Source: a virus. Taken from it: DNA of 26,926 bases. Below the pieces are notes generated by a model. It did not search any database. It had not been told where the DNA came from and was given only the letters and a program-made list of their open reading frames with translations. This document shows, one piece after another, positions 936 through 23,700 of this stretch. The stretch lies in the IMG/VR virus record IMGVR_UViG_3300034190_001327, positions 1 through 26,926 of that record, one strand, 5' to 3'. Position numbers and translations under genes: made by a program. How positions within the stretch are numbered: position 1 is the stretch's first letter; each line of letters begins with the position of its first letter.

Positions 936-964
936 TTGACACAACGTAAGTTGTGGCTTATACG
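936..964 (+). promoter_or_regulatory. Sigma70-like promoter of the AAA+/VWA operon
   Basis: A consensus -35 TTGACA (936-941) is followed after 17 nt by TATACG (959-964). The expected start of transcription is about 970, giving a leader of roughly 20 nt before the ATG at 989. A 16-bp palindrome fills the spacer, so the promoter is probably repressible. Confidence 0.7.
940..955. promoter_or_regulatory. Palindromic operator CACAAC-GTAA-GTTGTG
   Basis: A perfect 6+4+6 inverted repeat lies between and overlapping the -35 and -10 boxes. The same CACAAC-N4-GTTGTG pattern recurs exactly at 14581-14596, and the 11-mer CACAACGTAAG recurs on the minus strand at 7084-7074. Position and recurrence argue for a repressor binding site. 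Confidence 0.6.
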
Positions 965-988: not shown

Positions 989-2656
989 ATGACAACCATT
1001 CAAAATATCATCGATCAGAACACCTCACGCGAGGCCCAGAAAATCTTGCGTAACATCATCATATCCGAGAGCGATGCAGCAATCGGCGGTGGTGACGAGA
1101 TTGATTGGGGCAGCATATGCTCCAAGGCAAACCAATCTGTGCTCGTGAATAGCCCTCACCCGCACAGCAAGAAGCTGTCCTCGGTCGCTACCCGAGCGCA
1201 GTTGCTTGACCGAATGAGTGCCAAAGGGCTCGGCATATTCATCACGATCATGTGCGGAAATGATGGTGGCTCTGTGAGCTTCTTCGTGGGTTCCGCGTTT
1301 GAGCAACCTTCCTCGAACATGGTAGCATGGCCCTTCGGCGATAGCTTCTCCGAGGAGTTCTTCGAGACGGCGTTCGAGACCTTCTCGAGCCTTGATGTGA
1401 GCGACTTGATCCCTCACGAGGAGGACGTGCCCGTCAAGATCAAGAAGGTTACGTTCACCCCCAAGGTGGACGAGGACGAGGACGAGGACGATGCACCCGC
1501 ACCGACCCCGCTGCCTGTGTTCAACCCTGCGCTTGTGACCGCTGCGAACAACGTGATTAGCGTAGCAACCGAGGGTGCCTTCAATGATCTCGAGGATATG
1601 ATTGCTCACCGTGCTCGGCAGGACGAGCGCATCATTGATCTCGAGAGGGCGGCGCTGCACAGTGTGACGCCCGTATTGCAGCCTGTTGTGGGTGATGGCA
1701 CGATCCCTAACGGGACGCCTGTGCGCCGCAATGCACAGTCAGTGTTTGACTTGACCGATCCCTTGTTGGACTTCGAGATCGATTGCTGGGAGTGGGACGA
1801 TGTGAACCCGCTCGTTCCTGTGTACGATAGCAACTACTTGTTCGATGTGAACGTGCTTGCTGATCTGCTGTGGGCCCGTGAACACAACAAGAATGCGTGG
1901 ATGGTTGGTGACACTGGCACTGGCAAGACCACGTTGACCGAGCAGATATGCGCTCGGACATGCACGATGTTTCAGCGTGTGAATTTTGACAGCGACATCA
2001 CTCGTGTGGAGTTCGTTGGCAAGGTCGATGTGACCACTGACGATGTGGGTAGCAAGACCGTGTTCACCGAGGGCATCCTGCCGATTGCGATGCGTATGCC
2101 CTGCATCCTGTTGCTCGATGAGGCTGATGCGATCAGGGGCGACATTGCATATGTGTTGCAGCCCGTGCTCGAGGGTCGGCCTTTGCGTCTGCTCGAGGAT
2201 GGTGGTCGGATGGTGCATCCGCATCCACAGTTCCGCATCTTTGCGGCTGCAAATACTGGTGGCGCTGGCGATAGCTCTGGCTTGTACTCGGCTGCGGTCA
2301 AGGTGCAATCGAGAGCGGCGATGAACAGATACAATGTATTCGTTCGGGTCAGCTACATGGAGGCGATTGAGGAGATGCTGCTGGTCAAGCGCATCACCCC
2401 TGACCTCTCGGAAGCGGCGGCTGATGTGATGCTGGCGTTTCTGAGTAACTATCGCACGGCGTTCAAGGATCGTGAGATCACAACGCCCATCTCTCCTCGC
2501 AACATGATGACGCTCGGTGCGTATGTGTCATCCTTCGAGCCCCGTATCGGGCTGCGCTCGGCACTTGAGCGTGGGCTCAATGCGGTGGTCTTCCAATCGA
2601 TTGACGAGAGCGATGCGCCAGTGGTGCGCGGCATCGCTGACCGTGTGACCCCGTGA
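989..2656 (+). CDS. CobS/CbbQ-like AAA+ ATPase
   Basis: The 555-residue protein has a C-terminal AAA+ module of the MoxR/CobS/CbbQ kind. Walker A GDTGTGKT is at residues 307-314 and Walker B CILLLDEADA at 372-381. A segment reading AAANTGGAGDSSGLYSAA matches the conserved GD-x-(T/S)-GLY stretch of CobS. The first 150 residues are unrecognised and are followed by an acidic spacer (DEDEDEDD). The start is ATG 989 with TAGGAG at 976-981. A GTG at 953 in the same frame lies inside the promoter and is rejected. CobS-type ATPases work as hexamers with a VWA partner, and the next gene encodes exactly that. No cobaltochelatase CobN is seen, so cobalamin synthesis is not implied. A chaperone or remodelling role is inferred. 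Confidence 0.85.
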   Translation: MTTIQNIIDQNTSREAQKILRNIIISESDAAIGGGDEIDWGSICSKANQSVLVNSPHPHSKKLSSVATRAQLLDRMSAKGLGIFITIMCGNDGGSVSFFVGSAFEQPSSNMVAWPFGDSFSEEFFETAFETFSSLDVSDLIPHEEDVPVKIKKVTFTPKVDEDEDEDDAPAPTPLPVFNPALVTAANNVISVATEGAFNDLEDMIAHRARQDERIIDLERAALHSVTPVLQPVVGDGTIPNGTPVRRNAQSVFDLTDPLLDFEIDCWEWDDVNPLVPVYDSNYLFDVNVLADLLWAREHNKNAWMVGDTGTGKTTLTEQICARTCTMFQRVNFDSDITRVEFVGKVDVTTDDVGSKTVFTEGILPIAMRMPCILLLDEADAIRGDIAYVLQPVLEGRPLRLLEDGGRMVHPHPQFRIFAAANTGGAGDSSGLYSAAVKVQSRAAMNRYNVFVRVSYMEAIEEMLLVKRITPDLSEAAADVMLAFLSNYRTAFKDREITTPISPRNMMTLGAYVSSFEPRIGLRSALERGLNAVVFQSIDESDAPVVRGIADRVTP

Positions 2657-2663
2657 TGGGGTC
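2647..2663 (+). other. Hairpin over the AAA+ gene stop codon
   Basis: A perfect 6-bp stem GACCCC/GGGGTC with a 5-nt loop covers the TGA of the ATPase gene. There is no T-run, so it is not a terminator. It may tune the ratio of the ATPase to the VWA protein. Confidence 0.35.
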
Positions 2664-2701
2664 GCACACTTCAACCTTTCAATTTTCAGATGGAGCTACA
2701 A

Positions 2702-4948
2702 ATGTTTGGTAACAACAACCCCCCCGCGCTCAAGCGCGAGATGACTGCACTCAGTCGTGTGCTTGGTGCGAAGCACGTCAAGACTACCTTCGAAGGTCGT
2801 CGCGCCTTTACGAACGGCGACATCGTGAACATCCCCGCAATGCGTGAGGATGCGGTGCTGACCGATTTCGAGAAGGGTGTACTGCGTGGCTATCACATCC
2901 ACGAGGTCAGTCATGTGACCGACACCGATTGGGATCGCGTCAAGCCCAAAATGCGGAGCATGGATGCACGTAAGAAGGGCACGTACAACTCTTGCGAGGA
3001 TGCGTTCATAGAGAAGCAAGCGATTGGTAAGTTCCGAGGCGCAGCGCGTAGCCTTGAGAAGACAGTCGAGGCTGTGCTTCGTGCAGAGAATGCACACTGG
3101 GCAGGTGATGATGCGGCGCAAGCTGCGAGGCTCAAGACATGGTGGGAAGAGATACCATACGCCGCCTTGCAGGAGGCTCGATCACGCATGGGTTACGAGA
3201 GCCCCGCTCTTGACGAGTACCTGTCAGGTCTCCCGAGCGAACTGGTGACTGAGGCTTCCAAGTTTGTCGGCGAGTTGATCAGGGCGCAGTCGAGTGAGGA
3301 CTGCATCACGACCTCTCGCAAGATGATCAGGCGGATGAACAAGCTGGCGAAGGAACACGAGGAAGAGAAGGAAGAAGAGAAGGACGAGGACGAGGGCATT
3401 ATGCCACCGCCACCGCCTCCGCCACCGTGGGATGACGATGAGGGCGAAGAGTACGAGTACGAGTACGAGAGTGGCAACGATGACACAAACGAGGGAGACG
3501 ACGATGGCGATGACGATGAAGGCGATGATGGCGATGACGATGGAGACGAGCGGGATGACGATGGAGGAGAGGATGACGATGGAGGAGAGGATGAAGATGA
3601 TCGAGGAGATGACGACGATGGAGAGGACGAAGGCGGCGGAGGAGATGAGCAAGATGATGGCGACGATGAGGACGACATCGTTGGCGATGGCGACGATGAG
3701 GGCGACGATGACGACGACGATGGAGATGGAGACAGCGGAGATGGCGGAGGAGGCGATGATGATGACGATGATGTCGGCGATGATGATGACGACATGGGAT
3801 TGGTACGCGACGATGAGGGAGATGACGGAGGTGATGACGGAGATGACGGAAATGATGGAGAGGAAGACGAGGGAGATGACGTAGGCGAAGAGGCTGGCGA
3901 TGGTGCTGGTGGCTTCCGCATAGACGAGGCGCAGGATCGTGCGGAGCAGGCTCTCAATGACATACTCGAGCAGCACATGGCACAGGGCAGTGAAGTTTCT
4001 GTAGATACTAACCCGTGTACGACCATCGATAGCATGAGCGATTTCGTCAGGATGCTAAAGGATGCTCCAAAGAATTGGGAGGGCAGCATGTCTGACCAGC
4101 AAAGCAGATGGGGTGTGTTCGCCGCTAATAACTTGGAGGATCGAGACAAAGACTTCTCGGCGTACGATAGGGCGGCGGCGGCGCTGGGCGCAGACCTTCG
4201 TGTTTACTCTGCTCGTGTGGCTCGGTTGCTGATGGCGCAAGAAGACAAGCGCTTGATCGGTGGGCACCTGGAGGGCCGTGTTGATCGGCGGCGCTTCGGG
4301 CAGCTTGTGGCTGGCGAGAAGAATGTCTTTTCTCGGCAGGAGATCAAGCGCACAGACGATGTGGTGGTGTGTACTGCGGTAGACATGAGCGGGTCGATGG
4401 AGATCGATGACACGCTGCCACCGCTCATGGCTCTGAATGATTGTCTCGGCAAGGCAAGTGTGGACTTCGAGTTGATTGCGTGGACGGGTGCATCGGCTCG
4501 GATGCGGCAGTCGAGCCCGAAGAAAGCTGCGCTCATCCCGAATTTAAACGTGCTGATCGAGATGAAACGCATTGCCGAGCGTCACAATACACCGAGGGTC
4601 AAGCGCGAGCTCAACCGTTTCCTCTCCTTTGGTGGTGACACGCCGACCTATGCGGCGCTGACCTCGCTTTACACGAGGGTTTCATCACACCCGCATGGCA
4701 GGAAGATCATCCTGTTCTTGACCGATGGCGAGCCTAACGAGGGGTACGCCGAGGTAGGGATGTGCAGGAAAGTTGTCGAGAACATTCGTGCCACGGGCAT
4801 CGAAGTCTACGGGATCGGCATCCAGCAACAGGTCAGCAATATCTTTGGCGATGACTACTCGGTGCGGGTCAGTAAGAAAGCGCTGGGTGAAACGCTGCTC
4901 GGTCAGATCGAGAAGCTGCTGATCAGCAAGGGGCACGGACATGAGTAA
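2702..4948 (+). CDS. CobT-like VWA protein with HExxH motif and acidic linker
   Basis: The 748-residue protein has three parts. The N-terminal domain carries RGYHIHEVSHVTDTDW with HExxH at residues 67-71, as in the zincin-like N-terminus of phage CobT-like proteins. The middle part, about residues 218-400, is a Pro8 run followed by nearly uninterrupted Asp/Glu/Gly. The C-terminal VWA domain has the MIDAS motif DMSGS (561-565), a GGDTPT threonine loop and LTDGE (D675). The start at 2702 is preferred over ATG 2690 because GGAG (2693-2696) lies just before it. It overlaps the next gene by 8 nt. VWA proteins of this kind act as adaptors for MoxR/CobS ATPases. Whether the HExxH is a working protease cannot be told, since no third zinc ligand is obvious to me. 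Confidence 0.85.
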   Translation: MFGNNNPPALKREMTALSRVLGAKHVKTTFEGRRAFTNGDIVNIPAMREDAVLTDFEKGVLRGYHIHEVSHVTDTDWDRVKPKMRSMDARKKGTYNSCEDAFIEKQAIGKFRGAARSLEKTVEAVLRAENAHWAGDDAAQAARLKTWWEEIPYAALQEARSRMGYESPALDEYLSGLPSELVTEASKFVGELIRAQSSEDCITTSRKMIRRMNKLAKEHEEEKEEEKDEDEGIMPPPPPPPPWDDDEGEEYEYEYESGNDDTNEGDDDGDDDEGDDGDDDGDERDDDGGEDDDGGEDEDDRGDDDDGEDEGGGGDEQDDGDDEDDIVGDGDDEGDDDDDDGDGDSGDGGGGDDDDDDVGDDDDDMGLVRDDEGDDGGDDGDDGNDGEEDEGDDVGEEAGDGAGGFRIDEAQDRAEQALNDILEQHMAQGSEVSVDTNPCTTIDSMSDFVRMLKDAPKNWEGSMSDQQSRWGVFAANNLEDRDKDFSAYDRAAAALGADLRVYSARVARLLMAQEDKRLIGGHLEGRVDRRRFGQLVAGEKNVFSRQEIKRTDDVVVCTAVDMSGSMEIDDTLPPLMALNDCLGKASVDFELIAWTGASARMRQSSPKKAALIPNLNVLIEMKRIAERHNTPRVKRELNRFLSFGGDTPTYAALTSLYTRVSSHPHGRKIILFLTDGEPNEGYAEVGMCRKVVENIRATGIEVYGIGIQQQVSNIFGDDYSVRVSKKALGETLLGQIEKLLISKGHGHE

Positions 4949-5408
4949 GATGTCCCTGCCCAAGCGGTTCGACAGAAGCGTCTCGCCTACGATGAAGGGC
5001 ACATGGCGAGCGATGTGGCCCGAGTGGCGACCGTTCGGATGGTGGTGGCATGTGGCCTACTGCATCCGAGTTAAGCGGATCAACCACAAAAACGCTGAGA
5101 AGATCAGGGCGGTCTGCGCCCTGATCGACAGCGAGATGCCGCACCTGCGTGACAGGTACGTGCGACCAGAACCACACAACACATCGATGCCCTCGGTCGA
5201 GCAGATCGAGAGACTGAGTTACACAGAAAGGGAAGCTCATATGACAGACGACAACAAACTGACGATGGCTCGAGCGCTGAAACGATTGGAGGTCAAGGCT
5301 GGCCTCATGCGGCTCGAGTTCAAGGCGACAGGGCATCCTCGCAAGCACGACTGCGATGAGATGCTCTCGCTGATCGACGTAATCAAAGCAACCATGAGGG
5401 GTAAGTAA
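4941..5408 (+). CDS. Hypothetical protein, 155 aa
   Basis: The gene starts 8 nt inside the VWA gene and encodes a protein with a Trp-rich basic N-terminal part (MWPEWRPFGWWWHVAYCIRVKRINHK) and a helical, charged C-terminal part (NKLTMARALKRLEVKAGLMRLEF). An internal ATG at 5241, preceded by AGGGAAGC, could give a separate 55-residue product. The C-terminal half might therefore be a second gene read through in frame. No family is recognised. The position suggests co-expression with the AAA+/VWA pair. Confidence 0.55.
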   Translation: MSKMSLPKRFDRSVSPTMKGTWRAMWPEWRPFGWWWHVAYCIRVKRINHKNAEKIRAVCALIDSEMPHLRDRYVRPEPHNTSMPSVEQIERLSYTEREAHMTDDNKLTMARALKRLEVKAGLMRLEFKATGHPRKHDCDEMLSLIDVIKATMRGK

Positions 5409-5409
5409 G

Positions 5410-5562
5410 ATGCCGAAGTTTTTATTGACGCGGATCGAAACGTACGAGGCAGAAATTGAGTGCGAAACATACGAAGAAGCGCTCGATAAGCTCGACCAGC
5501 AAGAGTGGGGGAGCATGTCTCCTGAGATTGAAGATTGGGTTGATCATGTGGAGGAGACGTAA
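5410..5562 (+). CDS. Small protein, 50 aa, first of a tandem pair
   Basis: The product begins MPKFLLTRIETYEAEIECETYEEALDKL and ends DWVDHVEET. It begins 2 nt after the preceding stop and ends 1 nt before the next ATG. Its first 30 residues align with those of the following gene (KFLLTR/KFIITR, then IECETYEEAL/IECATYMEAL), showing a tandem duplication. The beta-hairpin followed by an 'EEAL' helix resembles small phage proteins of the DpnD/PcfM kind, but that assignment is tentative. Confidence 0.6.
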   Translation: MPKFLLTRIETYEAEIECETYEEALDKLDQQEWGSMSPEIEDWVDHVEET

Positions 5563-5563
5563 G

Positions 5564-5743
5564 ATGGGTAAGTTTATTATCACCCGAACAGTGCGGCACC
5601 AAGACCAGATTGAGTGCGCGACATACATGGAAGCGCTCGAGATAGCCAAGCAACACCTGTTCATCGAGGCTGCGGAGCCCGATGTGCAGTACCGCGCTTA
5701 CTCGCAGGAAGATGACAGCACAGACGAGGGGGCATTCGGATGA
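5564..5743 (+). CDS. Small protein, 59 aa, second of a tandem pair
   Basis: The product (MGKFIITRTVRHQDQIECATYMEALEIAKQHLFIE...DEGAFG) is a paralog of the protein encoded immediately upstream. A longer frame opens at 5456, but the ATG at 5564 matches the N-terminus of the paralog and sits 1 nt after the previous stop. The acidic tail EDDSTDEG is not shared with the first copy. Its stop overlaps the next ATG (5740-5743). The function is unknown. Confidence 0.6.
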   Translation: MGKFIITRTVRHQDQIECATYMEALEIAKQHLFIEAAEPDVQYRAYSQEDDSTDEGAFG

Positions 5744-5946
5744 GCAAGCCAAGCGTGAAAGAAATTCAGACTGAGTTCGCGAAGTGGGGGCACGTCGGTT
5801 GCCCCCTCACAATGAGAGAGATCGAGGTGTGCTGGCGTCATCGCTTCGGGCTCGAGGATATCTATGGGATCGGCTGCGATGTCGCAGCGGGATACAGTAT
5901 CGAGGATGTGCTGCCGTTTTACTTCAAGCGGGAGTGCGAGATATGA
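5740..5946 (+). CDS. Hypothetical protein, 68 aa
   Basis: This short protein (MSKPSVKEIQTEFAKWGHVGCPLTMREIEVCWRHRFGLEDIYGIG...FKRECEI) has several predicted helices and scattered His/Cys that form no clear zinc motif. The LTMREIEVCWRHRFG and VAAGYSIEDVLPFY stretches are consistent with a small helical DNA- or protein-binding fold. It is coupled on both sides by ATGA overlaps. I do not recognise the family. Confidence 0.6.
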   Translation: MSKPSVKEIQTEFAKWGHVGCPLTMREIEVCWRHRFGLEDIYGIGCDVAAGYSIEDVLPFYFKRECEI

Positions 5947-6218
5947 GCGTGGATGACCAAGCTGATTTGAGATCAACGCGCAAGCGGTTGAGTGTCACGG
6001 GCAAGACGCCAGCCTTGAGCGTGTGTGAAGATGGGTACGTGCGAGTGGGATTGTCGAGCGACATGAGGGAGAATGACATGCTCGTGCTCGGGCTTTACCT
6101 GAGCTTGAGGAATGAGAAATGGAAAAAGAATTTGGTCGAGCGTGTCGAGAAAGAGATGGCGGGGGCGCAGACGCCCACCGCTCGTGTTACGAGAGCCTTC
6201 AAATTAATCGGCGGATAG
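5943..6218 (+). CDS. Hypothetical protein, 91 aa, last gene of the AAA+ operon
   Basis: This basic helical protein starts MSVDDQADLRSTRKRLSVTGKTPAL, continues with a central DGYVRVGLSSDMRENDMLVLGLYLSL and ends in a basic tail (ARVTRAFKLIGG). The start overlaps the previous stop (ATGA). Its last 15 nt overlap the 3' end of a gene on the opposite strand (6204-6218), so the two transcription units are convergent with no intergenic terminator. No family is recognised. Confidence 0.6.
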   Translation: MSVDDQADLRSTRKRLSVTGKTPALSVCEDGYVRVGLSSDMRENDMLVLGLYLSLRNEKWKKNLVERVEKEMAGAQTPTARVTRAFKLIGG

Positions 6219-12315: not shown

Positions 12316-12374
12316 GGCCCTCGCAGCTTAATCTCATCGCAGCTTAATCTCTTACAGGCGAGGGCCGCTTAATC
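12316..12374. repeat. Tandem 16-bp repeats within a 9-bp inverted repeat
   Basis: CGCAGCTTAATCTCAT (12322-12337) and CGCAGCTTAATCTCTT (12338-12353) are adjacent direct repeats. A partial third copy GCTTAATC lies at 12367-12374. They are enclosed by GGCCCTCGC (12316-12324) and GCGAGGGCC (12358-12366). The block begins at the stop codon of the primase-helicase gene and lacks a T-run, so it is not a normal terminator. Confidence 0.6.
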
Positions 12375-14334
12375 ACTGAGCATTCGCAATAGCACTGGCA
12401 TGTGACATCGCCCGTATCGGCTGCGTCCACTCACGCACCACCGCGATTTGTTTATGCAAGCGTGATGCTATCTCTGCGTCCGACAAGGCTGGGCGAGTGA
12501 CGCCCTTCGCATCCTCCCACTCTTGGGCAAACGTCTGCGCTCGCTGTTGTGGTGTGCGTTGTGACATGATCCGCACAGTGTCGTCGTCACGGTTGCTGAC
12601 AAAGCCCACATGATAGAATGGCTCGTGCGTGTCTGACCACTCGCGTACCTTGCCGAAGCGCACGTCCATCATCACGTCCATATTCTCAGCATCGTCAAGG
12701 TGCTGGGGAGATGACATCCTTGCGAAGGGCGTACTGGGCAGGTCGCCATCCCACAGGCCAGCCTTGATGTCGGCGCTGTCCTTGTCCTCAAATATTTGCG
12801 TGATCTTTATCTGGGTTTCGAGAACGGTAAGCTGGTTGCTCGAGCCAGCCTCACGGCCCGACACGCTGCCATCGGACGGCTTGTTGCTGTGGTGGACGAG
12901 GATGACAGTCAGGCCAGCGTTACGCAGCTTGAGCATCAGGCGATTGATGTTCGACCATTCCTCTGCGCTATTCTCCATCATCCCCGACCATGCGCTCCTC
13001 ACGGTGTCGAGCACAACGATGTCAGGCTTGTTTGCTTTGACCCATTGATAGAACAATTTGAGACCGCTCTCGGTGCGAAGGTTCATATCCTCGTGGTCGT
13101 GGAACGGAGCCCAGATCATAAACTTGTCACCCGCATCGCCAAAGCTGCGCTGGCTGCGAGCCAAAAACTTTGCCACGTTCGACTTGCTGTTCTCAAAATC
13201 GAGGTAGAGAACCTTGGGAGTTTTTATAATGTTGAACGGCCCGAAGCGAGATTGTTTAGCCGCCGCCGCGTACAACATGTGACGCAGGAACATCGACTTG
13301 CCGTGTCCCGAGAACCCGTGGACTTGTATGATCGTGCCACTCGTAGGGATGATGGGGTCAATGTAGTATTCGACGCTGCCGATCTGTGCCTCAAGCTCGG
13401 GTATGTCCTTTGTGGTTATCGGGGTGAACTTGCGCGGCTCGTCAGCTTCCTCAAGCTCCTCTTCTTTCAAGCGATCAGGATGGTTCTTGGCTTCCATGTC
13501 CTCGACACGGCTGCACATTTGAGCAACCTTGGCTGCGTCGATGTAGTCTACAAAAAACTCAGCCATGAATTTGTATGCCTCGTCCACGAGGTCGCCGCCT
13601 CGATAGCCCTCGGCTGCGCGTTCGGCGATAGCCTTCCATAGCCTATCGTCTCGGGCGTTGCCGCCAGCGGTGGGCAGCTTGCCAACTTGCTCGACCAGTT
13701 CAGCAGTCGAGGCCCAAACCGAGACGTGCCGCTTTACGTTTGCAAGGCTCATGCCCTCAAACTTCATCTCGTTGAACGAGATCACGTTGTCGCCGCTGGG
13801 AGTGTCAAATGTTGGCATCGGATAGACAGGCATGTCGTCGAAGTCACAGCCATCCATAATGGCCCATGACTTGCCTGGGGATGGGGGAGCTAGGACGTAG
13901 CCCTTCGAGCCTCGCAGATCGAACCCAGCTACCGCAGGCCACTCGTGAGATCGTGTGACGTTTTTGCCCACGCGGTTCTTGATCCACCCCGCATCTTGGG
14001 GGAACTTAAAATAGTAGTGAAACCCATTTTTGGTACGCGCCACGATGGGTGTACGGGTCAGCCCCGCCGCCTTGGCTGCATCAACCGAGGGGAGATTGCC
14101 TTCATCGTCTGTGTCACAGTCAACAACCACCAGCCCACTCAACGGGCCAGTGATGATTGCTACTTGTGCATCGGGCCATTCAGCCCACCAACCCTCGATC
14201 TCGTCCACCGTGGGCATGGTCATACTGTCAACGTAATGCCCCCAAGTAATAAGGGGTGACTTACTCTGCGGGTTGATGGGCAGAGGTGCCCACCCCTTGT
14301 CCAGATATTCGAGTGCTGCGTCGAGTGCTGTCAT
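12373..14334 (-). CDS. Bifunctional primase-polymerase / RepA-like helicase, 653 aa
   Basis: The N-terminal Prim-Pol domain (about 1-180) shows GWAPLPI, the metal-binding D72-C-D74 (VVVDCDTD) and H106 (GFHYYFK), as in the archaeo-eukaryotic primase family. A helical linker with an acidic patch follows. Residues about 315-560 form a RecA-like ATPase of the RepA/AAA_25 kind: Walker A GFSGHGKS (340-347), LYLDFENS, Walker B DIVVLDT (D443) and VILVHHSNKPS. The protein would prime and unwind DNA at the phage fork. The start at 14334 is preceded by GGAG 9 nt upstream and lies 74 nt inside the upstream HTH gene. A repeat-rich non-coding region follows its stop. Confidence 0.88.
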   Translation of the reverse strand: MTALDAALEYLDKGWAPLPINPQSKSPLITWGHYVDSMTMPTVDEIEGWWAEWPDAQVAIITGPLSGLVVVDCDTDDEGNLPSVDAAKAAGLTRTPIVARTKNGFHYYFKFPQDAGWIKNRVGKNVTRSHEWPAVAGFDLRGSKGYVLAPPSPGKSWAIMDGCDFDDMPVYPMPTFDTPSGDNVISFNEMKFEGMSLANVKRHVSVWASTAELVEQVGKLPTAGGNARDDRLWKAIAERAAEGYRGGDLVDEAYKFMAEFFVDYIDAAKVAQMCSRVEDMEAKNHPDRLKEEELEEADEPRKFTPITTKDIPELEAQIGSVEYYIDPIIPTSGTIIQVHGFSGHGKSMFLRHMLYAAAAKQSRFGPFNIIKTPKVLYLDFENSKSNVAKFLARSQRSFGDAGDKFMIWAPFHDHEDMNLRTESGLKLFYQWVKANKPDIVVLDTVRSAWSGMMENSAEEWSNINRLMLKLRNAGLTVILVHHSNKPSDGSVSGREAGSSNQLTVLETQIKITQIFEDKDSADIKAGLWDGDLPSTPFARMSSPQHLDDAENMDVMMDVRFGKVREWSDTHEPFYHVGFVSNRDDDTVRIMSQRTPQQRAQTFAQEWEDAKGVTRPALSDAEIASRLHKQIAVVREWTQPIRAMSHASAIANAQ

Positions 14335-14576: not shown

Positions 14577-14604
14577 TTACCACAACCCCCGTTGTGCATA
14601 CAGA
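14577..14604 (+). promoter_or_regulatory. Putative promoter of the recombination operon
   Basis: TTACCA (14577-14582) and TACAGA (14599-14604), 16 nt apart, flank the palindrome in the same way as at the AAA+ operon promoter. The boxes are weak. The gene start at 14627 is 23 nt downstream. Confidence 0.45.
14581..14596. promoter_or_regulatory. Palindromic operator CACAAC-CCCC-GTTGTG
   Basis: A perfect 6-bp inverted repeat with identical arms and spacing to 940-955 lies in the divergent region between the HTH gene and the recombination operon. It could control both directions. Confidence 0.6.
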
Positions 14605-14626
14605 CCGTCAACAATCAGGAGTTCAG

Positions 14627-15049
14627 ATGGAAAGAGACATTATATTCGGCGACCAACTATTAACTCTCGCCCCCGAGCACCCCCAAGCAGATCGCCTATT
14701 AGAAGCGGCGATGGCCTACGTGAAATGCCTTGAACAGCAAGAAGAAACTAAGATGCGTTTGGACTATTTAAAAGCCCAACTCTTAGCTGATCTGCCCGAG
14801 GAAGTAGGCGAATACCCCATTCATTTAGATGGCGGCGGTAGCGTCACGGTTAAGCTCGGCGAGAAATACGAGTGGGACAAAAAAGTTCTGTCCGACCTAT
14901 TACTAAATGACAACCTGCCCGACTGCGTAACAGCAGGATACACCGTCTCGAAAGCCAAGTTCGACAAGGCTGACGAGCACACAAGACAGCAACTCTCACC
15001 CGCCCTCACGATTAAACTGGGGCTCCCAACAATCAAGGTTAGTAAATGA
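14627..15049 (+). CDS. Conserved-type phage protein of the recombination operon, 140 aa
   Basis: The first half is helical (LLEAAMAYVKCLEQQEETKMRLDYLKAQLLADLPEEVG). The second half is beta-rich and then helical (GGGSVTVKLGEKYEWDKKVLSDLLLND...AKFDKADEHTRQQLSPALTIKLGLPTIKV). I recognise this layout as common upstream of phage Sak4/SSB genes, but no function is established. ATG 14627 is chosen because CAGGAG lies 5 nt before it. The frame opens earlier at 14594, inside the promoter. Its stop overlaps the next start (ATGA at 15046-15049). Confidence 0.65.
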   Translation: MERDIIFGDQLLTLAPEHPQADRLLEAAMAYVKCLEQQEETKMRLDYLKAQLLADLPEEVGEYPIHLDGGGSVTVKLGEKYEWDKKVLSDLLLNDNLPDCVTAGYTVSKAKFDKADEHTRQQLSPALTIKLGLPTIKVSK

Positions 15050-15825
15050 AAATCACCCCCCTAAAAACAAACGATGGCTCGGTTTCGGGCGCGTCGAAGA
15101 CGCTGCTTTACGGACATCACGGCGCTGGTAAGACCGCGATGATCGGGCAATACCACAAGGCGTTTGGTAAAGGTCTCGTGCTCTCGGGAGAGAGCGGCCT
15201 GTCGAGCATCAGCGATATGGAGATCGACTATCTCCCGTTCAGTTCGTTCGACCGCCCGACGAAAGATGGCGAGTATTCGTTCAAAGATTTATGTGCGTAT
15301 GTCATGTCGCCCGAGTTTGCAAAACAAGAATACAAATGGATCGCAATCGATAGTGCCACCGAATTAAGTCAGCGTTGCTTCGCTGATGTCGAAGTCGAGT
15401 TCGCCAATAACGCGAACGGCTTTGAAAAGTGGGGCGTGTACGAGCGCAAGATTACTGCCGCTCTCAAGTGGGTGCGTGACTTGGATATGCACGTACTGAT
15501 CACTGCTCTCGCAAGTGAGGAGCAAGACGACAATGGCGTCACAAACTACTGGCCCATGCTCGTGCAAAAGAAAGTGCAGAAGCTAATACCAGCGTTGTAC
15601 GACCATGTGTTCTGCCTCGTACGTAAGACCAGCGAGACCAATGGTAAGCTGGATGTGAAGCGTTACTTGGTCTGCGACCAGATCAACGGATGGCATGGCA
15701 AGACCCGTGACCCGCATAGACGCCTCGCCGCATTCGAGGAGTGTGACGATGTAACCGAACTATTGCGCCGAATTTACATGACCGAAGCGCAATTCAAAAA
15801 ACACCAGCAAGGAGTATCGAAGTAA
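15046..15825 (+). CDS. Sak4-like RecA-family ATPase, 259 aa
   Basis: A single RecA-type core has Walker A GHHGAGKT at 23-30, Walker B YKWIAIDSAT (D102), and a later strand MHVLITALASEEQ matching the sensor region of the AAA_24/Sak4 group. The length is normal for the group. Sak4 proteins are single-strand annealing or recombination mediators that work with a phage SSB, and an SSB-like gene follows with a TAATG overlap. The DNA repair or genome-maintenance role rests on family knowledge and context. Confidence 0.82.
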   Translation: MKITPLKTNDGSVSGASKTLLYGHHGAGKTAMIGQYHKAFGKGLVLSGESGLSSISDMEIDYLPFSSFDRPTKDGEYSFKDLCAYVMSPEFAKQEYKWIAIDSATELSQRCFADVEVEFANNANGFEKWGVYERKITAALKWVRDLDMHVLITALASEEQDDNGVTNYWPMLVQKKVQKLIPALYDHVFCLVRKTSETNGKLDVKRYLVCDQINGWHGKTRDPHRRLAAFEECDDVTELLRRIYMTEAQFKKHQQGVSK

Positions 15826-16277
15826 TGTCATTTTCAGAAATGGGATTTGAAGGCGCAGATTTATCAGGCGTCGAAGTGCGGAGCGGTCAAAGCATCTTGG
15901 GTGCGGGTCGTCACGTTGTTAACATCAGCAGTGCAGAGGTCGAGAAGGATGAGAAGAAAAAAACCATCCAGCTTGTGCTCGGATACGAAAACGATGATGG
16001 CGTGATCCGCCAGTGGATTTATAAATACCACGATGGCAGCGAGGCCGCGACACGCATTGGTCTCGAGCAGATTGTTAGCTTGCTGACGTGCATCGGGCAT
16101 GACGCAACGAAGACGCCGCACCCCTCATTCTTCGTGGGTAAAAAGGTGGGCATCGTCGCAAAGGACGAAGTTTATAACGGCAAGACATCAACCAAAGTGA
16201 AGTATCATTTTACTGTACCCGAGGACACCGAGAGCAAAAAAGCGGGTGACATCGGAGACGAAGAAATCCCGTTCTAG
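15825..16277 (+). CDS. ssb: SSB-like protein with IPF C-terminal tip, 150 aa
   Basis: The beta-rich core (GRHVVNISSAEVEKDEKKKTIQLVLGYENDDGVIRQWIYKYHDGSEAATRIG) resembles the DUF669/OB-fold single-strand-binding proteins of phages. The protein ends GDEEIPF, the acidic Ile-Pro-Phe tip that bacterial SSB uses to recruit partner enzymes. The start overlaps the Sak4-like stop by 1 nt, with AAGGAG 10 nt upstream. The tip suggests it recruits host or phage proteins such as the adjacent exonuclease. The fold is not certain from sequence alone. Confidence 0.75.
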   Translation: MSFSEMGFEGADLSGVEVRSGQSILGAGRHVVNISSAEVEKDEKKKTIQLVLGYENDDGVIRQWIYKYHDGSEAATRIGLEQIVSLLTCIGHDATKTPHPSFFVGKKVGIVAKDEVYNGKTSTKVKYHFTVPEDTESKKAGDIGDEEIPF

Positions 16278-16286
16278 GAGACGACC

Positions 16287-17114
16287 ATGCACCCTGTATC
16301 GCCAATAGCAAAAAAAGTAATCGAGCAGATAGATGCAGGGTACGCCGCAGAGGATCGCGGCGAAGCCCGTGCCTACATAGGTGCGAGCATGGCAGGGACA
16401 GACTGCATCGCGCAGATGGCCCTGTCATTGCGTGGCTTCCCTGACAAGGAACCTGACCCGCAACTAAAGCGCATATTTTTTGCGGGGCACCGCATCGAAG
16501 ATTGGGTGGTTAAAGACCTGATCAAGAAAGCTGACGTGCGCGTGTGGGAGAAGGATGACTTCACGGGCCGACAACATAGGCGCGAGTGGCTCAATGGTCA
16601 TGTCGTGTGTCACGCTGACGGGCTGATTGATTTTGAGGACGGGGATGGCCCAGCCATTCTCGAGATAAAATCGATGAACGATGCTAACTTTAAGAAGTTT
16701 GTGTCAGTTGGCGTCAAGGCGAGCCATCGGAAATACTATCGTCAGATGATTATGATGATGGCTATGTTCCAAATCGAGCGAGCGTTCTTCATTTCCTATT
16801 GTAAGAACACGAGCAAGTACCATGCGGAGGTGGTCGCATTCGACCAAGAAGAATGGGATGGCATGTACGTCAAGATACAAGCTGCGCTCGACGGGCAAGC
16901 TACTCGCGTATCTGATAAGCAAGAAGATTGGCGATGCAAGTTTTGCTTCAAATCCGATAGCTGTTGGAGCCCGACCAAACTCAAACCCGCTTGTAACTTT
17001 TGCTCGCACAGCTTTGCGAACGAGAACGGCGGATGGAACTGTAAATTATCTGGCAAAGAAGCGAGAGAGCCGTGCGATAAGTTCGAGCAATTCGCGCCAG
17101 AACCAAAGGTGTAA
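16287..17114 (+). CDS. Cas4/AddB-type PD-(D/E)XK exonuclease with Cys cluster, 275 aa
   Basis: The nuclease core shows H68 and E71 (GHRIEDW), D111 (HADGLID), E126-x-K128 (ILEIKSM) and Q153 (YYRQMIMMM), the motifs of RecB-type exonucleases. C40 together with C217-x2-C220-x5-C226 reproduces the one-plus-three cysteine arrangement that holds the 4Fe-4S 'iron staple' in AddB and Cas4. Four further cysteines (C236, C239, C252, C263) could bind zinc. TAGGAG precedes the ATG. It probably resects DNA ends to feed the Sak4-like/SSB pair. Cluster type is an inference from spacing. Confidence 0.82.
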   Translation: MHPVSPIAKKVIEQIDAGYAAEDRGEARAYIGASMAGTDCIAQMALSLRGFPDKEPDPQLKRIFFAGHRIEDWVVKDLIKKADVRVWEKDDFTGRQHRREWLNGHVVCHADGLIDFEDGDGPAILEIKSMNDANFKKFVSVGVKASHRKYYRQMIMMMAMFQIERAFFISYCKNTSKYHAEVVAFDQEEWDGMYVKIQAALDGQATRVSDKQEDWRCKFCFKSDSCWSPTKLKPACNFCSHSFANENGGWNCKLSGKEAREPCDKFEQFAPEPKV

Positions 17115-17647: not shown

Positions 17648-17783
17648 TGACGCCAAGCAACAAGAGAAGATACGACAAATAAGGAACCAGCTTAGAAGCT
17701 CCCAAGCTGGTTCCGTTTACGCTCGAGCGAAAGAGGGCGTGACTGTGACGCTAAAGGATACGCCTTGGGCCGATGAGGGTTAG
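17631..17783 (+). CDS. Small charged protein, 50 aa, last gene of the recombination operon
   Basis: The product is MAKKDDDAKQQEKIRQIRNQ followed by LRSSQAGSVYARAKEGVTVTLKDTPWADEG. It starts 17 nt inside the preceding gene and its stop overlaps the stop of the giant gene on the other strand by 4 nt. Its coding sequence contains an 11-bp perfect hairpin (17683-17714), so part of its codon choice may serve termination. The family is unknown. Confidence 0.55.
   Translation: MAKKDDDAKQQEKIRQIRNQLRSSQAGSVYARAKEGVTVTLKDTPWADEG
17683..17714 (-). terminator. Intragenic, probably bidirectional terminator of convergent units
   Basis: GGAACCAGCTT and AAGCTGGTTCC form a perfect 11-bp stem with a 10-nt loop. 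On the minus strand it lies about 65 nt past the stop of the giant gene and is followed by TTATTTG. On the plus strand GTTTACG follows. It lies inside the coding sequence of the last plus-strand gene. Confidence 0.6.
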
Positions 17784-20700
17784 TAGCCGCTGCCGTAGCC
17801 ACTGCCGTAGCCACTGCCGTATCCGCTACCGCCGCCCGAGCCTGCGCCCTTTTTACCCGCCGCAGCATCAACAATATTTTCGACCACCGACTTAGGTAGT
17901 GGGCCTCGGCTCACTACCTCTCTTACGCCTGCGCGTCTGATGCCATTGGCTTCGTCACCATCCGCATATGAGCGGATCGCCTCTGCCACTGTGAGAGCAT
18001 CGAAGAACAAGCCCGTGGATGGGCCAGCCACCGCTTCCATCACTCTGCGCTGACCGTATGCGCCATTATCAGATTGCGTTGCAACCTCGTACATCAAGTC
18101 GCCAAGCAGACCGAAACCAACGGACGCCATGAACCCATCGAATGTTTGACCCAACACGCGGTCAAGGTTCTCGTTGTCCTCGAACCCCGTGTAAACAGTC
18201 TTGCTTAATCGACGGTCGCGGAGCGCATGTTCTCTGTTCTCCTCACCGCCTCGGCCCTGCACCTTATCTTTGAGGGCGACCGCCGCTGCACCAGCCACGG
18301 GAGCGGCTGTCAGAAGGGCTGCGAGAGGCGCTAGGCGGTTGTCTGAGGCACCGACAAACGCTTTGGCGAAGTTCCCTGTCCGATTGGCAACACCCTGACC
18401 AGCGAACGCCTCACCGAATGTACCGCCGATCATGCGGCCCATCATAAGCGGGAACGATTTAAGCTGCATAACCATCGCGCCAATCGGCGTCTGACCCCAA
18501 AGAGGAATGTCGTTGGGGTTGGGCGTAAAGATCATCTGATTGACCAGCTTAATAACCGAAGCCGATACCTCTTTGCTGCGAGGATGTTCGCTCGCAGAGC
18601 CTCGGCTCTCCATAATCAGATCAATGTCGTCGTCAGCTTCCAAGCCTTTCAGACCGTTCTGATCGAGGATGCGCTTGGCTATGCGTCCTGATCGTGAGTT
18701 CGGAACTTCACGAGCGATACGAGCCTGTGCTTTGAGGTGCTCGTAAGCAACCGCCGCACCCACGTCCCGCATCATGTCAGTCCACGGTGTCAGCAGAGTG
18801 GTGTTAAAGAAGCCCGACATAAACTGGGTTTGATCGACACCGTGAGCCATCGTCATCCGTTGATGCACCACGTTCTCGGTAGCTGCACCGACATTGCGGA
18901 TCATCTCACGATAAGCCTCGCCCGTGTCCGTTTGCTTCGTGTAGTTCTTGAGTGCTCGAGTGTATGATTTAAGATCACCCGTGCGGATCAGTGGAAGAAC
19001 CAAATCAGGCAATGACGTGAGAGTGGTGTAAGTGAGGAGCGTGACGGCGTTTATGCCGCGCAGCCACTTACTTGCGTTGGGCATAGAGTATAGGCCGTGC
19101 ATCCCCTCGATGGGGCGGCGCATAGCTGCGTTAAAGAAGCCTCTCGCGTGTTGCACGTTCTCTGCGCTCGTGTGCTTGGTCAAGCCCTGCGTGTCATACA
19201 GTGCATTGGCGATTGATCGCGCTCTCTTTTGAAAGTTCTGCCGCATTTGCTGGGCGTTTGCTGTGCCTTGGAGGGCCGCTTCCAGTTGCAGCATAATGTT
19301 TTCTTCGAGATCACGAGCCGTGCTCCCTTGACGCGCCATGTTAATAAGCTCGTCCGCTTTCTGCATCGCGGGGAACTGCTCTTTGTATGGAGCCATAAAG
19401 ACATTGTGGTCGAAGGTCTTATTCATCACACCCTGACCGTCACCGCCATTGCGCGAGTAGGTTGTTCGGATGATCTTGTTCGAACTGAGCAAGGTTGCGA
19501 TAGTTGCTTTCGCGCTGGGCGGTGAGCCCACGATTGCAGTGTAGTCGTGATACCCGTGTGCGCCCACCCCGAATGCCTCGGTCATATCGAGACGATGCTC
19601 GAGGTTGTCCGAGTATTTGGTCATGGCGACGAGAATGTCATTCTCGAGATACCCTGCGAGACTGTTAGGGTGGTTAAAGTCTTGGAACGCAGGGAACTCA
19701 TCGAGGCGGATCATGCGTCGATAATCAATGTGATCGTCGCCGTTGACGTTGCGTAGCTGCTGGGCTGGCTGTGACAGCACACCATCCTCGTCAGTTAACT
19801 TAGTGACAATGCGCTCGGCAATCGTACGGGCGTGTCCATCTGGATGAGGGGCACCGCCTGTGGATTTCTGCTCGGTCTCGAGGTACTCGGTCAGGCGTCT
19901 TGTGAAGTCGTCTTGATTGGCGAGGATCAGGTCTTTACGCCACACTTGCGGGAAGTAGTTTTCCTTCAGGTCACCCACAACGATGCCAGCCTTACGCATT
20001 CTTGTGACGGCACTTCTCAGGTACGAGCGAACGTGATCGTAAACCTTTAGTTCTTCGCCGCCGAGGAACCTCTTTGCCTTGCTGTCTCGCAGGGCTGTGA
20101 CAATATCCATATTACTTTTGGGCTGGGATGTTCTGCGGTGGGGGGAGAAGCCCACAACTGAGGCGGCGGAACCTCGGGCTGCGTCCATCATCTGACGTGG
20201 CCCATTATCCCAATAGCGCCCGAGTGCGCCCTTACTATCGGGCAGCTTTCTCATCATGCTCGTAAGGGGCATAAGGAACTTGCCCATGCTTTCGTTCGTG
20301 CGCTCGAAGTGACCACCGCCACCCTTCTCTGGTTCGAAGTGGTTGGCGAGCCAATTCATGCCCGAGTTACGCATGATCGCGCTGTTGGTTTTGAGCGGGT
20401 TCCAGACGTTAGACTTTCTGATTATGTCCTTGCCGTCTTCGCCGATGTTGCGCCCGTTAGCTGCGGCAATCATCTGATCGAGTGTGCGAGGTGGAACACC
20501 GCCCGCCTCGAGAACTCGTGCAGCCGCGACAGCCATGTTGTCTGACGTGTCCTCTGTTATTGAGTTGATCAGCATTGAGTTTACGTTGACCTCATCATTG
20601 CCACCGCCGAGGAGCGGATCAGCCTCATCGAACATAGACGCTTTGATCGAGCGTATATCTGACGGGTTCAGCATTATCCGCTCGCCGTCAACCGCGATAC

Positions 20701-23700
20701 TCGAGTAGCCCTGCTCGCGCAGAATGCGTTGGATATGTCTTGGGCCACCCGCTATTTCAGAGAGCGTCGAGAACATCTTGTCGGACGGCATTATGCCCTG
20801 CAAAAAGAGTGCGGCTTGATCCACATCTAGGTCGCCGCCGTTCTCGGCTACATATCGGCGTATTGCATTGAGAATTGACTGCACTGCTGACGTGTTCTTG
20901 CTGGTTTCTCTCGGGAAGATGATTGGGTTCTTGTCCGAGATGAACACGGGCTCGACAGATGTGATGTCAGTGATGCCCATTTCTTCAAGCTGCTCGGATA
21001 TATCGTCATCCATTGCCCGTAAGACAAAGCGGTCTCCGCCTTGACCCATCTTGGCGCGTACATCCCCAAGCGTTTCAAGCAACTCGGTGGCTATTGCTTT
21101 CTGGTCATCTGGGAGGGCGGCAACCATCTCACCTGTTCTGCGGTGGATATGATCGACAGGCATCTCGTCAACGTAAACGCCATCTCCCATAAGCTCTGAT
21201 GGCGCTCGTTTGCTTTTGTAATAGACACTGACGTTTCCGCCTGTGAAGTTCCTAACCGCATCTATTTGTGCAGGGTTCATACGCGATACGACAGTGCTTG
21301 CGTAGCTAGTAGCAAGCTCGGAAGGAACCTCTTTGCCGTAGGTATCCGCCGCAGACGCATTCGTGATCTTTGCGCCTTCTTTCCCCCCGAATACTGAGCG
21401 AACGAACGGCACGGGGAAGCGGCGTCTTGCGGCAGGCTTGGCGACAATCCCATGCAGGATGTATGAGGCGGCCTCCATCATTTCCTCTGACAGTGACAGG
21501 GTGAAGTCATCAAACTTCGGGATATCGTCGCCTTCCATTGTGTCCATCATCTTGCGGAAGTCGGTCTCGACGCCATCGTCATCGACCCAATCAGCAAAAA
21601 TTCTGCCGAGCAATGTGTCTGCTGGTACGCCTGACTGACGAGCGTACTTGTCTATCAACACGCGGTTAGCATCGGTAACAACAGAAGTGTTATAAAGAGA
21701 TTTTCCGATGTACTGCATACTTTGGGTGATGTCCTCGGACTTGCTTACGTTGCTTGCAACGCCCCGCAACTCTTTGACAAACCCGTTCCATCCCTCGTCC
21801 GCTTTGGACGGCGGTAAGTCCACACCCAGACGAGCGAGGCGAGCCGCAATGGTGCGAGCCGCGTATGTCGCGTCCTCGTTCCGATGGTTGATCTGGCTCA
21901 AGAATGTACGCATTGCAACATTAGCGTTTGCTGGCACACCGTCTTCCGTTCCGCTGCCAACATTTTGACGCTGCTCGACATCAACAGCTTTGCTGATAGT
22001 GGGCGATTTTGCCACTTCCATAAAGTCAGCTTGATCATCGGAAGCTCTGCGGCGCTTGACTTCTACCCGTATAAAATCGCGGTCGGCCTTGGCCTTCTTT
22101 GTTTTTGTTGTGGTAGCCTTCGCGAGCGCCGCCGTAAGCGCATACTTGTCCATTCCTCCGTAACGCTGCTGCGCTTCCGAGACGTTTGCGTCAGACATCT
22201 CGATGGTGTCTTCGCCATTGATTATCTGGTTGACCCTGCGGTGCAGCTTTTTACCCAGCGCTGACGGTACGCCGACTGTCTGTTTCTTTTTATCAACGCC
22301 ATCGGCAACGATATTACGCAAGTAAGCATCGAGAAGTTCGCCTATGCTTGCGGTCTCGTAGTTGATGTTCGCATCGTTGAACTTCTTAATGTCCGCCTGA
22401 GACATGATGGCGTTGGCTTTAGCCGAACCAGACATGATCTCCCGAGCGGCCTTAAAGTAAGCGGCCCTCTTGCGGTTGGCGGCTTGCTTTACCTTTTTGA
22501 AGTTCACCTTTTTCTTTAGAACTTCGGGCGTGAAGTTGTTGCTCTTGCGGAGATCGAGAACTTCGTCTGACAGGCGATACATATCAATATCGCCACCCTC
22601 AATATCCATGAATTTCTCGTTCAAGCTATCGAGGACGTTGTTGATTAAGACCTCAAGATCGCTCTCGTAGAACGCAACCATCTCTGTGTCGAAGCCCTCT
22701 CGAAAGGCTTGGCCCTCGATGACGCCATCACCCTTTTGGTTGACGTACTGGTTCTCTTTATAGAGCATCTTCGAGAGAGTTTCGGCTGCCGCCTTCATCT
22801 TTCTGTTGAACTTCTTGGTCGCTTGGAATGGGCCAGTGGTGGCGCGATATTCTTCCTGCTTCTTGAAAGCAGATATCTTGTTGTCCTTTATCGTGTTCGC
22901 CATTCCGTGAAACTCGTGAGCCACTTTAAGCATCGCCTCGGCTGCCATCTGTGGGTCTCTCACGCTCTCGTCTTGACCCATGATTTGTCTGTACTCTTGA
23001 TGCGCGTCATTCAACTTGGCAAAGCGTATCCGTATTGCCTCGCCTAAACGTGTCGAGGCCTCCACAGGCATGTGAAACTTGACGCGCTTGGCTTCCTTGC
23101 GGCTCACAATCATTTTATCGAATAGCGGTTCTAGCTCAAGATCGTGTACTTTTTTGCCGCTCATGTAAGACCAAAGCATTTTGACTATCTTCGTGACTTT
23201 GTTCCAGAGCTTTTTATTCTGGGGGAAGTAAACCGCGTCATGCCTTCTCTGCATGTATAAGGCGAACTGATTGGCGAACATTTCTTGCGGGCTTTCGGCT
23301 CCGTTAAACGCGCCTATTTCCGCCCCGAAAAGCTCGTCTTCGGGGTTAGTCACTTTGATAAATGGGGTGCGTTGCTCGACCACAGTGCGACCGTAGGCGT
23401 CTTTGCCACCGCCATTAAACGTGCCGTTTTCTGCGTAATACTTATCCATCTGCTGCCAGAACTCGAGTTTCATGTCAGCATTCATCAGGTTTCTGTAAGC
23501 CCAATGGCCCATCTCGTGCATAACAAGGAAGGTTCCCGACATGCCGCCTCGATCTCCATTAGGAAGAACCGCAACACCTGGGTTCCTTCTGCCTTTCATG
23601 TCGAGGTTGATAGAGTTTGTTTTACTCGAAACGGAGTGGATGGACTGATACGATTGGTTGGCCGTTCCTGTGGTGTCTACAAAATTTGGGGCAACGTCCC

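Follow-up and report, generated by a model that had tools for sequence, protein, structure and literature searches.

A phage CobS/CobT-like gene pair with a conserved HExxH motif and its possible role in the replication or recombination of mobile elements

The cobST pair and its operon

A 26.9-kb IMG/VR record, possibly a fragment (hereafter the window, i.e. the whole stretch of DNA analysed), carries adjacent genes for a CobS-like ATPase and a CobT-like protein. Surveys of marine and other viruses have repeatedly listed viral cobS and cobT among auxiliary metabolic genes for vitamin B12, and the pair has been described under a B12 label in many tailed viruses (PMC8651126). The question raised by this locus is whether the pair serves B12 synthesis or another function. 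As originally predicted, both ORFs are intact and adjacent (Table 1), and the residues of full Walker A and B motifs and of a complete MIDAS were located in the two proteins, the numbering of K313 being correct.

The CobS-like protein consists of a helical N-terminal extension (residues 1–140), a low-confidence acidic stretch (145–168) and an AAA+ core (about 240–555), with Walker A (GDTGTGKT) starting at residue 307 and including K313, and Walker B (DEAD) at 377–380. Residues G307, G310, G312, K313, D377 and E378 are invariant across 50 CobS relatives. The protein matches phrog_249 (E 7.4e-46) and PF07728 (1.2e-19), a PDB search returned CobS (9ujv, E 3e-89) as well as midasin, and the predicted structure has a pLDDT of 87.5. 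The CobT-like protein matches phrog_1576 over nearly its full length (E 2.9e-44, residues 23–745 on positions 19–728 of the 729-position profile); in the N-terminal domain, PF06213 is present in 64/64 family members. An acidic linker of roughly 180 residues had been predicted. It is real, with 215 residues, but nothing unusual: linkers in relatives have 50–280 residues and a median of 33% D/E, and a long acidic linker as a special trait was rejected.

Table 1. Features of the cobST region and of the second dyad-bearing region in the window
Feature	Position	Strand	Remarks
Intrinsic-terminator-like stem-loop	875..900	+	stem of 11 pairs with T-rich tail; by consensus scan alone
cobST promoter with operator dyad TTGACACAAC-gtaa-GTTGTGGC	936..957	+	between -35 TTGACA and -10 TATACG
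CobS-like MoxR-clade AAA+ ATPase	989..2656	+	555 aa, ATG start
CobT-like protein (zincin-like N-domain, acidic linker, VWA domain)	2690..4948	+	752 aa
CobT-like N-terminal domain, residues 1–225	2690..3364	+	mostly helical, zincin-like model
HEVSH, residues 71–75	2900..2914	+	in CobT-like N-domain
N100-x-x-E103-D104-x-x-x-E108, candidate third metal ligand	2987..3013	+	helix after HEVSH helix
Acidic low-complexity linker, residues 226–440	3365..4009	+	53% D/E, pI 4.05
VWA domain with MIDAS (D565, S567, S569, D679)	4325..4924	+	PF00092 2e-7, CobT_C 2e-4
Small ORF, 155 aa	4941..5408	+	no family; overlaps CobT stop by 8 bases
Small ORF, 50 aa	5410..5562	+	by eye similar to the 65-aa ORF after it
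Small ORF, 65 aa	5546..5743	+	or shorter from internal start
Small ORF, 68 aa	5740..5946	+
Small ORF, 91 aa	5943..6218	+	relatives (56–59% identity) downstream of cobST in six groups
Prim-Pol gene	12373–14334	-
Second operator dyad copy CACAAC-cccc-GTTGTG	14577..14596	+	divergent Prim-Pol / Sak4-Cas4-exonuclease gap
Sak4/Cas4-exonuclease operon	about 14594–17114	+

The pair had been placed in its own regulated operon with six small genes. The upstream stem-loop, which would insulate the operon from the preceding genes, and the promoter with its dyad agree with this, but the tightly spaced small ORFs (4941–6218) number five, not six. The terminator consensus scan of the region found 7 sites against 4.5 expected. 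The cobST promoter is absent from the list of a generic promoter scan because its second hexamer ends in G. The operator dyad has 4 strand matches in the window (0.20 expected), and the same dyad lies just upstream of CobS, or at an over-extended ORF start, in close relatives (e.g. loci L017, L022, L024, L086 and L095). At the Prim-Pol/Sak4 gap, three relatives have a weaker related dyad (4 mismatches). A partial relative of the 155-aa ORF adjoins cobST in one group of relatives.

The metal-site motif of the N-terminal domain

The predicted HEVSH is present, but its numbering (H67/E68) was wrong, the correct residues being H71, E72 and H75. On its own HExxH is weak evidence, because 2.1% of shuffles of the CobT-like protein contain it; since it is universal among relatives, a chance occurrence was rejected. 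All 55 full-length CobT proteins gathered through an adjoining CobS, without selection for HExxH, carry the motif, and in 53 the complete pattern HExxH...N..ED...E is present. Alignment of nine divergent plasmid and phage proteins showed H71, E72, H75, N100, D104 and E108 to be invariant in all, and HExxH was seen in aligned examples from an IncC plasmid, Rhizobium, Vibrio, Klebsiella and Acinetobacter. In the family alignment of 115 rows, E103 is found in 112, D104 in 114 and E108 in 112, and E72 is kept as strictly as both histidines (all 114 rows with letters).

In contrast, HExxH is carried by none of 31 biosynthetic CobTs, which were sampled from the Alphaproteobacteria and gathered by genome search, since a genome-contig scan gave five loci. 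These 31 proteins form one clade that excludes the window protein, with a support of 1.0 even when the motif columns are left out.

The N-domain model (residues 1–225; pLDDT 95.5, pTM 0.90) has HEVSH on helix 59–78 and the conserved N100, E103, D104 and E108 on the next helix (93–114). A Foldseek search of the PDB found nothing significant for this domain, and zincins ranked first only in the VIA second look (BepA Z 6.3, 3c37 Z 5.1, jannalysin Z 4.5, ArdC Z 4.2), with further zincins at Z 3–5 mixed with TetR-like helical matches. Values of Z 4–6 fall where the tool warns of common-arrangement likeness, and the modelled domain resembles zincins weakly. The original prediction had named as contrary to it a fold that would keep HEVSH from binding metal; the predicted N-domain did not come out that way. 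The motif on the second helix of the domain is shared by the anti-CRISPR AcrIIA26. AcrIIA26 was not among the fold-search matches, which does not count as evidence either way, and a search of phages and viral contigs for its relatives found none.

Occurrence and gene neighbourhood

PHROGs 249 and 1576 are a common phage pair, and cobST relatives reside in phages, phage-plasmids and IncC conjugative plasmids. The window belongs to a lineage of integrase-bearing phages whose genomes measure about 55 kb; among named phages, the closest one infects Roseobacter. A nucleotide search of phage records gave no match, and a viral-contig scan with a single protein returned nothing, whereas an alignment-based scan did retrieve relatives.

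On IncC plasmids, which occur in 91 E. coli genomes, the genes are arranged in the row AAA, unknown, ssb, bet, exo, DUF3150 and VWA (with HEAAH). The bet-exo operon of SXT and IncC has been described as a recombination operon activated by SetCD/AcaCD (PMC4344509, PMC4542580). In SXT, deletion of genes after exo cut transfer 10-fold or less (PMC2791158); none of s067, s068 and s070 could be equated with the VWA gene, as the E. coli collection yielded no SXT record. A literature search found no paper that assigns a function to the IncC VWA gene.

Neighbours of phage cobST include genes for DNA polymerase, primase, helicase and DNA-binding proteins, and replication genes adjoin cobST in ICP2, Cobavirinae, Rhizobium and Acinetobacter elements, whereas some relatives adjoin endolysins instead. 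All 67 recognised terminase genes lie on the strand opposite to cobST. In the window, cobST is 10 kb from the recombination operon, across the integrase.

Possible functions and comparison with known systems

We suggest, with moderate confidence, that the pair is an early ATP-driven remodeller, possibly a protease, serving the replication or recombination of the mobile element. In such a machine, CobS would form a ring and hydrolyse ATP, the VWA/MIDAS domain would capture an extended peptide of the target protein or of CobS, and the metal-site N-domain, tethered by the acidic linker, would hold or cut the target while the ring pulls. The target may be a protein on DNA or in a replication or recombination complex, handled early in the life of the element. 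The conservation of HExxH and of the AAA+ residues, the zincin-like model, the IncC gene row around ssb, bet and exo, the replication genes beside phage cobST, the opposite strand of the terminase genes and the operator dyads at the cobST promoter and in the Prim-Pol/Sak4 gap count for this reading. Counting against it are the weakness of the gap dyad in relatives, the distance from the recombination operon, the relatives beside endolysins, the fold matches of only Z 4–6 and the small effect on transfer of the SXT deletions after exo; moreover, no published experiment on the family turned up that demonstrates proteolysis, zinc, coupling to ATPase activity or a target. The original prediction of a dedicated remodeller with a possible peptidase, rather than a cobalt chelatase, draws support from the distribution of HExxH, the absence of CobN (0/49) and the zincin-like model, which has high confidence but low-Z fold matches.

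Across the family, B12 synthesis and virion assembly fit poorly. If the phage proteins joined host CobN, they could load the corrin ring with cobalt and so increase B12 output, e.g. for a class II ribonucleotide reductase, as proposed for viral cobST (PMC8651126). Besides the CobS match given above, homology to cobaltochelatase extends to CobT (9uka, E 3e-58), and B12-making alphaproteobacteria are plausible hosts, in keeping with the Roseobacter phage. We nevertheless regard this role as very unlikely. As had been noted, no CobN is visible in the window, and none occurs in 49 related CobST-bearing records, although CobN might come from the host; relatives are also found in E. coli, of which the control genome lacks CobN. 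The proteins score far below the NCBIfam equivalog cut-offs (CobS, 138 vs 558.55 bits; CobT, 17.5 vs 759.05 bits), 216 of 289 alphaproteobacteria already possess CobT, and a catalytic subunit of ribonucleotide reductase of any class is present in only 16 of the 49 records, the closest relatives (G001–G007) all being without one. Chelation also fails to explain the retention of HExxH, because biosynthetic CobT works without it. Just as unlikely is a chaperone/co-chaperone with a peptidase maturing structural proteins of the virion, a role that has been put forward, on the model of the two-tailed archaeal virus, for the MoxR-vWA-metallopeptidase pair in jumbo phages of group 2.2 (PMC7824862). 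Relatives with the same motif sit on IncC conjugative plasmids, which build no virion, and both the opposite strand of the terminase genes and the replication genes as neighbours speak against such a role.

A pair common to phages and conjugative plasmids, with an operator-controlled promoter, could also act when infection begins or a plasmid enters, unfolding or cutting a nucleoid or defence protein of the host. The ArdC anti-restriction zincin among the matches of the modelled N-domain would be consistent with this, as would the N..ED..IE pattern that the domain shares with AcrIIA26 (24.4 bits vs at most 10.5 in 20,000 shuffles), but this likeness spans about 44–70 residues. PADLOC gave no family for the VWA partner at E 0.01 and only weak generic AAA matches for the ATPase, and the gene context points rather to replication and recombination; an anti-defence or host-takeover role seems unlikely. 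A ternary VMAP-type conflict system was also considered. A somewhat better case, though still a doubtful one, can be made for a pure remodeller like RavA-ViaA or NorQ-NorD, in which the metal of the N-domain would be structural or peptide-recognising and nothing is cut. It is compatible with the context of the replication/recombination remodeller, and biosynthetic CobT retains the N-domain without HExxH; but the would-be general base E72 is conserved as strictly as the histidines, and a site with a structural role alone would have no need of this. A broader proposal, which we consider rather improbable, is that i) phage and plasmid CobSTs are one misannotated class of AAA+/zincin machines stripping or cutting proteins on DNA in replication and recombination, ii) biosynthetic CobT is a single later branch that lost the metal site, and iii) AcrIIA26 derives from the same N-domain. 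If the difference in HExxH holds, many viral B12-gene claims are based on a misannotation, and phages and resistance plasmids share a very common machine with an undiscovered target.

Among known systems, the aerobic cobaltochelatase CobNST (PDB 9uka, 9ujv, 21vu) has a homologous CobS AAA+ core and the full-length CobT architecture of N-domain, acidic linker and VWA, but HExxH and the ED pair are missing from biosynthetic CobT, whereas the window pair lacks CobN and lies far below the equivalog cut-offs. The viral cobST pairs (PHROG 249/1576) of Cobavirinae, ICP2, CRP-810-type and Rhizobium phages (PMC8651126, PMC11288001) are the same pair, with HExxH in all those aligned; they do not differ in kind, and their B12 reading is unsupported by the metal-site and CobN evidence. 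In the VWA protein of IncC plasmids the N-domain recurs, with HEAAH, along with a linker and MIDAS, but the IncC ATPase bears a CbbQ_C domain, and the ssb, bet, exo and DUF3150 genes separate the AAA and VWA genes. By their published description, group 2.2 jumbo phages likewise have a MoxR-clade AAA+ beside a VWA protein that bears a metallopeptidase domain at its N-terminus (PMC7824862), so that such a domain on the VWA partner of a phage MoxR protein has a published precedent; here, a 27-kb fragment from an integrase-bearing lineage with genomes of about 55 kb is concerned, and the context favours an early role over virion assembly. What is added here is the split in HExxH between the CobTs of mobile elements, which carry it, and the alphaproteobacterial biosynthetic CobTs sampled, which do not.

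The CobST pair, its promoter and its surroundings

The CobS-like and CobT-like proteins form a real, well conserved pair of a kind that has already been described. Pfam searches detected AAA_5 (1.2e-19), VWA (2.4e-7) and CobT_C (1.7e-4) in the pair and the N-domain of CobT only weakly; the PHROGs matches were phrog_249 ('porphyrin biosynthesis', 7e-46) for CobS and phrog_1576 (3e-44, nearly end-to-end) for CobT. Every motif named for the pair in the original prediction was found, although its H67/E68 should be numbered H71/E72, the second histidine being H75. Other genes of the window, an entire 26.9-kb IMG/VR virus record that is perhaps a genome fragment, encode an integrase, an amidase-type endolysin, a RusA-like resolvase, a Prim-Pol/helicase, Sak4 and a Cas4-type exonuclease. 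A giant open frame (>3000 aa) continues past the window end; it has no Pfam match, but its C-terminal third matches PHROGs at 1.6e-8 and 2.2e-7, one being a virion structural protein. Two small adjacent proteins resemble paralogues (MPKFLLTRIETYEAEIECETYEEALD / MGKFIITRTVRHQDQIECATYMEALE).

Coordinates of features in the window
Feature	Position	Size or remark
Operator-like dyad	936-957	cobST promoter
CobS-like AAA+ protein	989-2656	555 aa
CobT-like protein	2690-4948	752 aa
N-domain of CobT-like protein	2690-3364	residues 1-225
Small protein	5410-5562	
Small protein	5546-5743	
Operator-like dyad	14577-14596	divergent gap, Prim-Pol vs Sak4/exonuclease operon
Giant open frame	17780-26926	- strand

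A terminator-like stem lies 5' of cobS, followed by TTGACACAACgtaaGTTGTGGCTTATACG. Many relatives have the dyad just 5' of cobS, the copies in loci L022, L024 and L095 being perfect. Its pattern has 4 strand matches in the window (0.20 expected), located at the cobST promoter and at 14577-14596. A related dyad with 4 mismatches occurs at the Prim-Pol/Sak4 gap in three relatives (G001, G002 and G006). Control of cobST shared with replication/recombination genes is thus suggested, not proven.

The putative metal motif of the CobT N-domain

Two viral-contig scans, with CobT and CobS as queries, gave 156 usable loci. In the 150 fetched loci with both genes, these are always on the same strand, mostly with CobS first and short spacing. 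Since the CobT scan pattern itself contained HExxH, the motif was counted only in CobS-found loci, where it is present in 55/55 full-length CobT proteins, 53 of them having HExxH...N..ED...E. The same residues are invariant in an alignment of nine divergent CobT-type proteins (from the window, an IncC plasmid, Klebsiella and Acinetobacter phage-plasmid-like records, three further plasmids, a Rhizobium phage and Vibrio phage ICP2). HExxH in the CobT-like protein is not a chance occurrence.

In the N-domain model (1-225, 64 sequences; pLDDT 95.5, pTM 0.90), helix 59-78 carries HExxH and helix 93-114 carries N100/E103/D104/E108. Foldseek itself found no significant match in the PDB; a second-look aligner ranked BepA (Z 6.3) and the Zn-dependent peptidase 3c37 (Z 5.1) highest, followed by jannalysin (4.5) and ArdC (4.2); thermolysin-type, M1, DPP3 and Wss1 proteins ranked lower, and TetR-type helical proteins were interspersed. 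Against viral models, CobT proteins came top. The modelled domain therefore appears zincin-like, not a proven zincin. The CobS model (pLDDT 87.5) consists of a helical extension at the N terminus, an acidic stretch modelled with low confidence and an AAA+ core.

The N-domain profile also matched the anti-CRISPR AcrIIA26 (PDB 9zq6) with its positions 74-140 (E 2.3e-4); the fragment scored 24.4 bits (maximum of 20,000 shuffles, 10.5), and hhalign gave 70% probability over 44 columns. Residues N46, E49 and D50 of AcrIIA26, which touch Cas9 (PMC13089141), align with N100, E103 and D104. The AcrIIA26 fold was reported as novel, with no DALI neighbours (PMC13089141). Common descent is possible, not shown. 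Both proteins have an N..ED..IE...Y.G..N stretch.

Gene neighbourhoods and proposed role

The pair adjoins polymerase, primase, helicase or ligase genes in Cobavirinae, ICP2, Rhizobium phages and an Acinetobacter plasmid. Among 140 co-directional neighbours (74 groups), the commonest recognised families are a DNA-binding protein, endolysins, DNA polymerases, DnaB helicases, sigma factors and primases, so the replication link is common, not universal. Terminase genes are on the opposite strand in 67/67 cases.

The IncC gene order is AAA(CbbQ) - unknown - ssb - bet - exo - DUF3150 - VWA (HEAAH). The VWA protein matches 877 plasmid records, 796 predicted conjugative, and the IncC genes are present in 91 E. 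coli genomes. The bet-exo genes belong to an operon switched on by the transfer activators SetCD/AcaCD (PMC4344509, PMC4542580), and SXT deletions of bet, exo, s067, s068 or s070 reduced transfer by no more than 10-fold (PMC2791158). In the IncC plasmid (L164 1628-9621), exo and the VWA gene are separated by a DUF3150 gene, and a Methylobacter plasmid (L168 4885-6249) also has one close to its VWA gene; DUF3150 may be a third component.

For the relatives carried on plasmids, a virion-assembly role does not hold. Our preferred reading, given an even chance, is that the pair would act as an early ATP-driven remodeller serving replication/recombination of the element, with a metal-site N-domain that is probably a peptidase.

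Comparison with B12 cobaltochelatase

The B12 label of the pair is not supported. Equivalog scores of the window proteins are far under cut-off, and CobN is missing in 49/49 pair-bearing records, as it is in the E. coli control. Of these records, 16/49 encode a catalytic subunit of ribonucleotide reductase, whatever its class, and the closest relatives of the window all lack one; 216/289 alphaproteobacteria have their own CobT. In the CRP-810 paper (PMC11288001), phage cobT is assigned the function of a different, unrelated CobT, the lower-ligand-activating one; the two names apparently clash.

Biosynthetic CobTs (31, from alphaproteobacteria) have HExxH in 0/31 cases; the site reads G-x-x-D-[SA]-x-[AS]-L-like and the ED pair is lost. 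In a tree built without the motif columns they form a single clade (support 1.0) on a long branch. As this tree is effectively unrooted and its biosynthetic side is Alphaproteobacteria only, we infer the direction of change, namely loss of the metal site in biosynthetic CobT. Homology to cobaltochelatase is real, since the mobile CobT family aligns along its whole extent with the solved CobT of that enzyme (9uka, E 3e-58) and mobile CobS matches the solved CobS (9ujv, E 3e-89); CobS also matched midasin.
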